From Coptis chinensis (lineage: Eukaryota > Streptophyta > Magnoliopsida > Ranunculales > Ranunculaceae), in NCBI GenBank assembly GCA_015680905.1, contig CM027382.1, forward strand, positions 744,001 through 808,000: a stretch of DNA of 64,000 nt. Direction: 5' to 3'. Below, one piece after another: positions 8,355 through 30,002 of the stretch. The notes beneath the pieces were generated by a model. That model was not told where the DNA came from. It worked only from the letters and a program-made list of their open reading frames with translations, and searched no databases. Numbering within the stretch: the stretch's first letter is position 1; each line of letters opens with the position of its first letter. The position numbers and the translations under genes are program-made.

Positions 8355-8536
8355 TCAACTACTATACAAAGAACATGGTAAAACAGAATCAGAAGCTGGG
8401 TTAGGCCTTAAAGCAAATTCAGCCTTAATCGAATAATGGTCCGATGGTCATTCCGCCGATAGAAGTTTATGATCAGCAGCTCTCTTCCTTATGTCATGAT
8501 GCACATCCAAATGGGGTATTAATTGCAAGAGATCAG
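8355..8536 (-). pseudogene. CCR4-type EEP exonuclease, last exon, copy 1 (degenerate)
   Basis: After a good CAG acceptor the minus strand reads LLQLIPHLDVHHDIRKRAAD, then KLLSAE, a TGA stop (8448-8450), then PSDHYSIKAEFALRPNP and a terminal stop at 8355-8357. This matches the C-terminal end of CCR4-like exonuclease-endonuclease-phosphatase domains, where E-W-x-SDH carries the catalytic Asp-His; here the Trp codon has become TGA. It lies about 4 kb downstream, on the same strand, of the exon carrying the GDFN motif (12569-12657), so the two could once have been consecutive parts of one gene. The region between exon and GDFN exon that should encode the DYIFY segment was not found. Confidence 0.65.
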
Positions 8537-8612
8537 CTGTTTCATAAAATATTAAACCATAGATTAAAAGAGATATAAAAAAATTGATTAATCAGAGATA
8601 TTAATGAACTCT

Positions 8613-8835
8613 TAGGATAACAAACTTGTACTCTAACGCTGAAATTTTCTGGTCCAAAAGCGAATGGGGTTTACAAACTTGTTAAAACGGGCACCTAGTC
8701 TTAATGCTGTTAACAAAATGCTAATGTGGCACGAATGAAAAGAGCTTGCCACATCAACATTTTGTTAACAGCCTTGAATCCCCTTTTGAAAATTTTGTAA
8801 ACCACGTTCTATGAGAGAAATTCAAAGTTATCCTA
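8613..8835. mobile_element. MITE with long internal hairpin
   Basis: Ends are TAGGATAAC and GTTATCCTA, perfect 9-base inverted repeats. Partial pairing continues inward (GGTTTACAAA against TTTGTAAACC), and the centre 8708-8770 forms a near-perfect palindrome with TGTTAACAAAATG arms. Length about 220 bp, non-coding. A half copy lies at 18837-18926, in the same position next to the second CCR4-type last exon. Confidence 0.65.
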
Positions 8836-10980
8836 TATGAAAAAAAATGTGAAAGTTTGTTCCCTATTAATCTAAAATCCAGTCTTATGCTTACAGAAGT
8901 GCGCCAATTCCGCCAAACACTTTTCCACTAGGTATGGGTTTCATAATCAAGCATCATCCATTAACCAAATTTAAAATATGTCCCTTGAAGAACTTCAAAA
9001 AAATCTATCAATTAAAAATGTAGAGTTTAGAGAATCATCTTCAGTGAGAAGGAAATGCTTTAAGTTTTAGCAAATTTACAAGAAACATACAAAATTATCA
9101 TGAAAGAAAAAGAAGGAAGAAACAAATAGAGCAGTCAAGTGTCTACAATTTTTTTTTTTTTTTAATGATGCTTATCTGTTTTTGGTATATGATCCTTCAT
9201 TGATCATACTCTTAGGGAGAAATGTGCGCTATATGCTTTGGATCAATTTACAAGTCTTCCTTAACCCCATAACTTAATCAAAAGCAATAAAGTTTGTACG
9301 AATTATTACCAAATTATCAAGGAAGAATCAGTGCTTGTCCATGAACCAATAAAAAGTAATAGACCTTGGTTTGCTTCAAGTTCATGTTTTGTGTACATCA
9401 CATTAAAATTTTAGAATGTGACCGTACGATTTCAATGGCACGACGAAATCCATGCAATAAATATCAAGTTCATGACTTTGGTTTCAAACTTGCCATGCAT
9501 AAACTTGAAAGGATTGTCTATCGAACATATGCTTCAAAATACGAGCTGTCTATCAACTCAATCTTATTGTGTTATCTTATCAGTAGAAAAAACATTTCAA
9601 ATTTACCATCTCCAAGAAGATTATAACAGTATGTAGGCATACACAATAAAATAAAAATAGCACTAGTAAATGATGAAGAAAAATCATAAAAGTTCTACTT
9701 CAAGACCAGCAGGAAATCGGCAATGCTAAATAGACTACGCACTGCATTCCTGCTGGTGACCAGTGCATATTGGTAGTATCAAATTGAATCTTGTTCCAGA
9801 TAAAACCTGGCAGTTGTATGCATTAAACATTTTCGTTTAAAAGTTCACTCCAAGTTTACGATTTATTTTGTCACCATTTGTATTAGGTGGAAAACAAATT
9901 AATTTTGCTTTCATATGTGAGATGGGCTCCAATCAAGGTGTTCTCCAACTGTGACTGACCGATACAGTTGTGACAAAATTGCAGGGAAATCATCCGTTAC
10001 TATTTAAAGAATCACACAATAACTGGTGGGCATACGAAGTTAATTCAGTGTACTCAATCCGTGTACTTCAATCCATGCCAGGTACACAGGACCTGAACAA
10101 CATAGATTGGAAACTCTGCTGTGCAAAGCCACCTCTTGTTCATCCCTTCCACACATCTCTAATTATGTTGTGTGGCAAATTCGCAATCCTTAAATATGCT
10201 CGACTTTGGTAGAGTCAAAATGCTGTGTGATGTTCAGTCCCTTTGAACCAAGTAATACAATAGTAATAAAGGACCGTTTGCTCTCTTTGTTTCAAAATTA
10301 TGTCAATTTCCCGTCAATGTTTCAAGGAGGATCCGAAAAAGATATATTCGTGGATTTAAGAGAGGCTTTGGAAAAGAAGCAAATGTGTTGGAGTTTATGA
10401 ATCAAACAGAAACTTTAGAAAATTTAGTTCCACAATAACAATAAAGGACTTTTTAGTGTTAAATGCGTAAAAATAGTTTTTCTGCAGTCAGAATGACTAG
10501 AAATGCTTTTGAATCAGTAAGTTTGATGAAAACACCAAATTGGTGTCCCCATTAGTTTTGTCAAAGATCCTAAGAAACGGAACAACTATCAGTTCCAATT
10601 CTAGGGTATCTATTTGAGAACACTAATAGAAACAGAATAATCACCTTAAATCAGGAATTTGACAAATCAGGTACAGGAGATGAGAAAGACTTGGACAGGC
10701 TAATAAGCACAAGCCAGATGATTAAACAATGTTGTGTTTTGATATTGTTAATTTTGTAGTTAACAATTTATAAAATTTGGCTAATTGTAGACCGTTCATT
10801 TTCACCATTTTTGATACTATATTTGGCGAGTTTAGATTTTTTATTTTTTTTATTTTTTGGATTATTTGTGACAATGTTTAGAATAGTTAGGAGATCATAT
10901 CTACAAAATATTAGCCTATTACAAAACTTATAAATGCCCTAACGATTTTGAATTTGTTTACGTGTCAAGATAAAATATGT
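8836..10980. other. Non-coding AT-rich interval
   Basis: No gene could be supported on either strand. A short inverted repeat (ACCAGCAGGAA near 9703, TTCCTGCTGGT near 9747) is the only local structure seen. Confidence 0.35.
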
Positions 10981-10999
10981 CCGTAGAACCCCTCCCTTA

Positions 11000-28585: not shown

Positions 28586-28587
28586 GT

Positions 28588-28716
28588 ATATATATATATA
28601 TATATATATTATTCTTATATATATATATATATATATATATATATATATATATATATATATATATATATATATATATATATATATATATATATATATATAT
28701 ATATATATATATATAT
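28588..28716. repeat. Long (TA)n microsatellite
   Basis: Nearly pure TA dinucleotides for about 130 bases, interrupted once by TTATTCTTA near 28608-28617 and ending in the same TTATTCTTG word. Such tracts can extrude cruciforms and vary in length. Confidence 0.9.
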
Positions 28717-28739
28717 TATTCTTGTGGTAATGGTTTTTT

Positions 28740-29205
28740 TGGGAAAAAAAAACAAAAAACAAAAAACATTTTATCTCTGCTTAAAAAAGGTAATCCCCTA
28801 TCAATCTATTTGTTATTATCAATCTTCTTTGCGCTTTCGTTGTGGGTGTGTTGATTGTATCCGGTATTCATTTAAGTTTTGTTTTTCTCATCAACTTTTT
28901 ATTTAAAGATCAGGAGTTCAATTTTCAGCACTTCGATATCCCAAGTTGCCTAAACGAATTATTTGGAGTCTTTGTCAACACACTTCGGCAAGAAGAACTC
29001 CAAATATTTTGTTTTGAGTGGCGACTCCTATACTGATGCAATGGTCAACACCAAGATCACATTTCGATAACTTCATACATTATACTAACTTTTTTGCACA
29101 TATGTACATACACTACATGCCTACAGTAGTGGAAGCAATCTGACATTGATTCTAAGCTTCATATTGGTTTTGTTTGACTTACTACTTGAATTGTACATTT
29201 TCTAG
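28740..29205. other. Intervening sequence upstream of CCR4-type exons
   Basis: Mostly non-coding. Bases 28910-29040 contain a GAGTGGCGACTCC word common in plant LTR-retrotransposon-derived sequence. I did not find the LCLQE or preceding exons of the CCR4-type gene here, although they are expected upstream of 29206 on this strand. Confidence 0.3.
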
Positions 29206-30002
29206 TCCGATCAAGCTCAAGGGTGTGCCACCTTTTTTTGCAGCGGAAAGTTCCCACTTGTGCATGAGTATAAGGTACCGTACCTTTAAATGAATTTAAT
29301 TATGATATTTCGATACAGTTTGTTTAACATTTTTTTGTTGTTGTAGGTTGATTTCACGACACTTATCAAAGCTGCAGTTGATACCTTACTAGAGTCGAAC
29401 AAGATTGTGGGTAAAGAACATTTGAATAAGGTAAGTGGTGTTAACCCAACTGTGTTAGTACTGTATAATATCACTAGTGTTCACTGTATTGTAACTATGA
29501 ACCATATGAATTGTTGAATGGGAAGTTCATACTAATAAGATCTTGTTCCAACCCCTGATAAACATTAAACCTATCTTATAGCCGTTACTATGTATTTCAA
29601 GATTATGTATTCCATCATAAACCGATTTTAGGATCGTGGGAGTTGAAAAAGTCATTCATAGAAAATGAGATACATCAAATTGAGTACCTTTTGATTTAGT
29701 TGAGGTTATGAAAATCATGAACTATTGGTCCCTTTTTCTTTTTCTTCTTCTCTTGTAGTAGGCAACTAGCCTCTATATACTAACTGAGTTAGTGCATATT
29801 TTGTTGTCCAATTATTCATTGTAATGGAGCAACACTACAAACATACACGTATCATGTCTAGAGATAAATGTTTTGTGTGTATTGGTTTTGTCAGGAAAAC
29901 GTTGCTTTAGTTACTGTACTTCAATGTTGGACGTCAAAACTGTGTGTTGTGAATACACACCTACCAGCCAACAAAGATTACAGAGATACCAAACTGTGGC
30001 AG
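29206..30002 (+). pseudogene. CCR4-type EEP gene fragment, three open exons
   Basis: Exons 29206-29274 (SDQAQGCATFFCSGKFPLVH, EYK), 29347-29430 (VDFTTLIKAAVDTLLESNKI, VGKEHLNK) and 29895-30002 (ENVALVTVLQCW, LCVVNTHLPANKDYRDTKLW, Q) are each in phase 0 with TAG/CAG acceptors and GT donors, and contain no stops. They match the middle of CCR4/nocturnin EEP domains: GCATFF, KDNVALIVVL-like and NTHLxxxxDxxDxKLWQ. The exons before (LCLQE, FDHYEEFF) and after (GDFN, SDH) are not here but at 18.6-20.2 kb and 8.4-12.7 kb on the opposite strand. Classed as a gene fragment because no complete copy exists in the window, though these exons themselves are intact. Confidence 0.7.

Follow-up and report, generated by a model that had tools for sequence, protein, structure and literature searches.

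Exons of a probably dead CCR4/CNOT6-family gene lie in three blocks on both strands of a Coptis chinensis chromosome, in an order shared by an inverted duplicate

How do exons of one type of gene come to lie in three separate blocks, on both strands of the same short piece of chromosome? The question is raised by C6:744001-808000, a 64,000-nucleotide stretch of the Coptis chinensis genome (935.6 Mb in 116 contigs); the whole stretch is called the window here, and positions without a prefix are counted from its first letter. An earlier note, made from the sequence alone, had read the exons of a CCR4-type nuclease in it as a single gene, or a tandem pair, broken by inversion and duplication among transposons. 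The gene type, the duplication of the last exon and the damage by transposons all recur in our analysis, which leaves the inversion and the number of genes as matters of argument. We conclude that the locus is probably a CCR4/CNOT6-family gene (of the poly(A)-tail deadenylase type) that kept its introns but is now dead, and in which exons iii–v were inverted.

Eight exon types of a CCR4/CNOT6-type nuclease gene, i to vii and the last exon, were found in the window (Table 1), in three blocks: exons i, ii, vi, vii and last are on the minus strand, and exons iii–v are on the plus strand. Every exon piece of the earlier note lies at the place and on the strand it gave, including all of its seven exon types and its exon i (20254-19192), whose inner gap proved to be a 904-bp hAT-like insertion; exon vii (12486-12375, minus) had been overlooked. 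Exons ii, iii, iv, v and vii are open, and exons i, vi and both last copies are damaged by stops, shifts or a lost splice site, which bears out the previous reading of stops or shifts in i, vi and the last exons, with ii–v clean. A whole catalytic domain on one strand and in one frame, as a working gene would have, was not found, given the three blocks, the two strands and a missing exon viii. A search for the latter, which took in the window, flanks of 10 kb (left) and 20 kb (right) and the 110 kb surrounding a second copy of the locus described below, gave nothing above noise; the best row (E 0.03, on the second-copy side) had no conserved motif.

Table 1. Features of the locus (window positions)
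Feature	Position	Strand	Remarks
Exon i, 5' part (FTLFYYNVLS...EILSHSSD)	20122..20328	minus	one internal stop codon
Exon i, 3' end (..ILCLQE)	19192..19217	minus	GT donor, phase 0
Exon ii (VQFDHYEEFF...)	19036..19122	minus	open, AG/GT, phase 0
Last exon, copy A	18579..18764	minus	frameshifted, acceptor AG lost
Exon vi (..IPVVICGDFNSSPG)	12569..12657	minus	one internal stop codon, donor phase 2
Exon vii (SDIVELITGNQ..GIIKQLNLTHSMTL)	12375..12486	minus	open; entered in phase 2, left in phase 0
Last exon, copy B (DLLQLIPHLD..SDHYSIKAEFAL)	8355..8536	minus	AG acceptor kept, phase 1, one internal stop
Exon iii (..GCATFFCSGKFPLVHEYK)	29206..29274	plus	open, AG/GT, phase 0
Exon iv	29347..29430	plus	open, AG/GT, phase 0; assigned by place and borders
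Exon v (NVALVTVLQ..VVNTHLPANKDYRDTKLWQ)	29895..30002	plus	open, AG/GT, phase 0; split in two in the C7 gene
hAT-like element inside exon i, 904 bp	19218..20121	minus	terminal inverted repeat (TIR) CAGTGCCG..CGGCACTG
Second hAT-like element	11015..12228	minus	one end, internal tandem array (period ~180), adjoins exon vii
Inverted segmental duplication	8581..53303		partner C6:1765319-1696392 reversed; ~90-98% in long blocks
Direct repeat, 50 bp	18081..18130		98% identical to 18924-18973
Partner of 50-bp direct repeat	18924..18973		

The exon structure is the strongest evidence for the identity of the gene. A protein search with exon ii led to a collinear CCR4/CNOT6-type gene at C7:1494501-1499500 (hereafter the C7 gene), and exon borders were compared with this one gene, some of whose borders were read by eye. 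GT donors at exons i to vii and AG acceptors at exons ii to vii and last copy B stand at positions as in the C7 gene; splice dinucleotides are kept at every exon except last copy A. Intron phases are likewise equal in the two genes (phase 0 throughout from i/ii to v/vi, five introns in all, then 2 at vi/vii and 1 before the last exon), in agreement with the earlier claim that phases fit across the blocks from ii to iii and from v to vi (0 in both cases), and exon ii has 29 codons in each gene. From these shared borders and phases we take the pieces to be unprocessed exons belonging to one type of gene, in line with the common origin put forward in the earlier note.

The spliced domain of the C7 gene matches PF03372 (1.8e-21) and the CNOT6L structure 3ngq (7.3e-50), and its motifs read LQE, NTH, GDF and SDH. 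It shares the borders and phases of exons i–vii and last with the window gene, at approximately 38% protein identity (92/242), but differs in lying collinear on one strand with no stop in the exons read, in possessing exon viii and in having exon v split in two. A divergent CCR4-like gene at C101:155001-165000 (the C101 gene), with a relative on C2 near 40.45-40.46 Mb, was reached by the exon v search; it has the same exon series, and its exons v and vi are slightly nearer to those of the window (20/36 and 16/28), whereas it is collinear on one strand and its reading yielded no exon ii. Over the seven exons common to all three genes, identities were 92/242 between the window and C7, 91/236 between the window and C101, and 140/261 between C7 and C101, suggesting that the window gene belongs to a third, more diverged lineage. 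On the possibility raised beforehand that the exons match different paralogues, no exon is clearly that of one paralogue, and these identities, taken against two reference genes, weigh weakly and not decisively against mixing of paralogues. The C7 gene has relatives of its own. A 97% copy, whose match to exon i contains a stop, lies ~93 kb away at C7:1587727-1591534, and a chimeric fragment (~600-1485 of the C7:1494501-1499500 stretch joined to ~2271-2937, with ~785 bases skipped) was found at nine dispersed places at 89-95% identity (C1:21.67M, C1:51.33M, C4:12.20M, C4:12.48M, C4:17.19M, C4:94.80M, C8:12.45M, C9:29.28M and C9:40.22M). The joint is common to them within 3 bases (17/17 candidates scored), and the fragment looks as if it was multiplied by a transposon.

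Similarity of individual exons was assessed with exon queries from the C7 and C101 genes, by tblastn against the six-frame translation of 94 kb (window and flanks). Exon ii gave E 2.0e-6 with the C7 query, exon v gave 2.0e-7 and 5.3e-8 with the C7 and C101 queries, respectively, and exon vi gave 4.7e-5 and 1.5e-7. Exon iii reached 0.012 with the C7 query; the last exon reached 0.095 (C7) and 0.009 (C101) in the window, and its counterpart in the second copy gave 2.5e-4 and 8.9e-5. In these searches, rows that look like chance went down to ~0.11 on the window side and ~0.03 on the second-copy side, so that we grade the matches of exons iii and last as moderate and those of ii, v and vi as strong. 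Exon vii scored 47 with the C101 query, compared with 33-37 for shuffled queries, and fell outside the best four rows with the C7 query. The CCR4-type identity first read from the letters thus holds on exon similarity (clear for ii, v and vi, moderate for iii and last) together with borders and phases as in a collinear CCR4 gene. The catalytic motifs LQE, N-x-H, GDFN and SDH are readable in exons i, v, vi and last, some of them past stops. A preliminary motif scan with plant CCR4 segments gave a lead that the C7 and C101 queries superseded: it picked out ii, iii, vi and the latter half of v, but not i, vii, viii or the window's last exon (exon i, 32 vs 33 in one shuffle; last exon, 29 vs 30 elsewhere).

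Domain searches behaved differently. Pfam returned no match at E<=10 for exons i (5' part), ii, iii, iv and v taken singly, and none for the spliced iii–v reading (87 aa). The profile search with PF03372 that had been suggested as a check matched 150 places over the whole genome (150 of 2588 candidates scored), none of them in the window, as expected from single-frame matching against a gene split into short exons; the C7 gene, whose exon structure matches, carries the domain clearly. A single-exon search of PDB gave one row (E 0.16), which looks like a chance match to an unrelated protein and was set aside.

The scrambled arrangement exists twice. Window 8581-53303 has an inverted segmental duplicate ~0.9 Mb away on the same chromosome. 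This second copy holds all eight exon types, each once, with i, ii, vi, vii and last on one strand and iii–v on the other, in the exon order and relative strands of the window. Its exon i shares the hAT insertion (909 bp there) and is without the window's stop, having its own elsewhere; its exon vi has a one-base shift, and its last exon is open but has also lost the AG acceptor. Beyond the duplication ends, no match of at least 300 bp was found at megablast sensitivity between 734001-828000 and 1676001-1786000 of C6, with 10-20 kb of flank covered on each side; at higher sensitivity, the exceptions were the last-exon repeat and other short repeats.

The element that splits exon i accounts for the transposon damage that had been claimed. 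It is flanked on both sides by the 8-bp target duplication GTTCAGAC and, with its short TIR and many dispersed relatives in the genome, has the features of a hAT element, a label that we take from its ends. Only one end of the second hAT-like element was found. Additionally, a zf-RVT (LINE-type) remnant lies at 14257-14760 on the minus strand (E 0.00021, below Pfam's cut-off).

The last exon was duplicated locally, as had been proposed. Copy B, within 8341-8701, is 91.8% identical to 18565-18924 over 364 aligned columns, and a third copy, old and truncated, was found just left of the window (C6:742240-742364, minus), ~74-75% identical to the other two. Copy A sits in former intron 2, within a block flanked by the 50-bp direct repeats, a corresponding pair of which is present in the second copy.

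A history consistent with these observations would begin with a DNA-level copy of a CCR4 gene whose lineage had diverged from those of the C7 and C101 genes, and which read from exon i to the last exon on the minus strand. Exons iii–v, as one segment, would then have moved past the RRM gene that now lies between the exon blocks and turned over; the simplest path would be either a pair of overlapping inversions or a single cut-and-paste event that reversed the segment. A last-exon copy may have landed in former intron 2, between the 50-bp direct repeats, and the hAT-like element may have split exon i. The scrambled region would next have been copied, inverted, to the place ~0.9 Mb away, after which each copy would have gathered stops and shifts of its own. 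We infer the order of the early steps and which copy is the older, and presumably neither makes a protein. Unprocessed pseudogenes are, as a general class, broken by rearrangement and transposon insertion, and the window gene resembles them in its retained introns, stops, shifts, insertions and partial duplication; it departs from the usual kind in having an exon block on the opposite strand and a scrambled state that was itself duplicated.

Several points, the missing exon viii among them, weigh against a single dead gene with an inversion. By sequence alone, exon i did not rise above noise (scores 38-44, compared with 38-46 for shuffled queries), nor did exon iv (absent from the best four rows), and the assignment of both rests on position, splice sites and phase. 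We infer, rather than observe, the inversion of exons iii–v. The comparison of the two copies from exon i (5' part) to exon v gave 10 silent and 12 replacement changes, where the flanking spectrum predicts a neutral silent fraction of 0.255; replacement changes thus fell short of the neutral expectation (P 0.034), which hints weakly at past constraint and is not what a simple long-dead gene would predict. The test is weak at 22 changes, and its neutral spectrum (539/32348 differing sites in blocks of at least 800 bp and at least 93% identity, with the iii–v block excluded) comes from blocks more alike than the duplicate as a whole. Finally, the three last-exon copies are spaced ~10.2 and ~10.1 kb apart, as they equally might be in a tandem array, and an exon-i-like stretch (YTADILCLQQ, 12874-12845, minus) lies ~190 bases upstream of exon vi. 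Its E of 0.13 equals that of the true exon i end and no GT follows directly; the likeness could be fortuitous, or the stretch could be left over from a second gene copy.

These last two points bear on the most serious alternative, namely that two or more CCR4-type gene copies, in a minus-strand tandem array and perhaps with a head-to-head copy on the plus strand, suffered complementary exon losses with no inversion within one gene. A small tandem array is possible given the third last-exon copy, whose greater divergence suggests that copies of different age existed. Conversely, each of exons i–vii turned up once at clear E-values, whether in the 94 kb that includes the window or in the 110 kb surrounding the second copy; the blocks are complementary, and their breaks fall exactly at ii/iii and v/vi. 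On the plus strand, nothing clear of i–ii was seen 5' of iii, nor of vi–last 3' of v (E<=1). Single occurrence in each copy and the exactness of the breaks favour one gene, and we prefer one gene with an inversion to a small array whose members lost complementary exons, the latter being possible but distinctly less probable.

Capture of gene fragments by transposons (Helitron or Pack-MULE), which then carried them into the region, is improbable. The hAT-like elements and the LINE-type remnant nearby would suit such an origin, as would the nine dispersed places of the chimeric fragment from another CCR4 gene of this genome. However, the exon blocks occur only at the window and its segmental duplicate among the candidates scored, and introns and exon order are kept within the blocks. 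Specifically, exon vi–vii DNA was found at only the two C6 loci (2/2 candidates), as were exon iii–v DNA among the best 40 of 75 candidates (other matches being to a repeat downstream of v) and i–ii–last DNA among the best 40 of 844 (other matches being in the hAT part). DNA upstream of exon iii was at the two loci, with short matches beside the second copy and at C6:51.52 Mb, and protein searches with exons v and ii returned only the two loci at high identity, followed by genes at 48-50% (4/4 candidates each). Within this coverage, presence at two places argues against an amplified transposon carrier, and the multiplication over the genome that marks Pack-TEs was not seen among these candidates.

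An assembly artefact, with mixed strands produced by misjoined contigs, is very unlikely. Such a misjoin had been named as what would overturn the earlier reading, and a misplaced haplotype might, in principle, look like the inverted duplicate. The second copy, however, keeps the scrambled order while differing by its own indels, stops and five RRM copies; the scrambling thus came before the duplication and did not arise from a misjoin local to the window. We rejected a haplotype fold along the whole chromosome because the duplication ends within the 10-20 kb flanks covered.

Also very improbable is that the scattered exons are expressed and joined by trans-splicing (minus i–ii, plus iii–v, minus vi–last), or that iii–v are a source of antisense or small RNA against CCR4 genes, a notion prompted by the kept splice dinucleotides and the deficit of replacement changes.

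The surroundings hold genes for ribosomal protein L3, cellulose synthase and RRM proteins, a set that suggests a plant nuclear genome; the locus is placed between the ribosomal protein L3 gene and the CesA-like gene. The RRM protein gene that separates the exon blocks is at 23697-25435, with a diverged relative at 32857-33431. Sequence like window 23697-25066, single in the window, occurs five times in all between the blocks of the second copy, where the RRM genes occupy C6:1733319-1748454 with a period of ~3.5 kb. Furthermore, ~350 bases in intron iv/v of the window (29438-29787) are absent from the second copy, either by insertion in one or deletion in the other.

Trans-splicing, if true, would matter far more than the probable inversion in a dead gene that we favour. 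As it stands, the locus offers a worked case of a plant gene decaying by rearrangement as well as by point mutation, ordinary in kind, in which the inverted duplicate acts as a built-in replicate and dates the scrambling to before the duplication.

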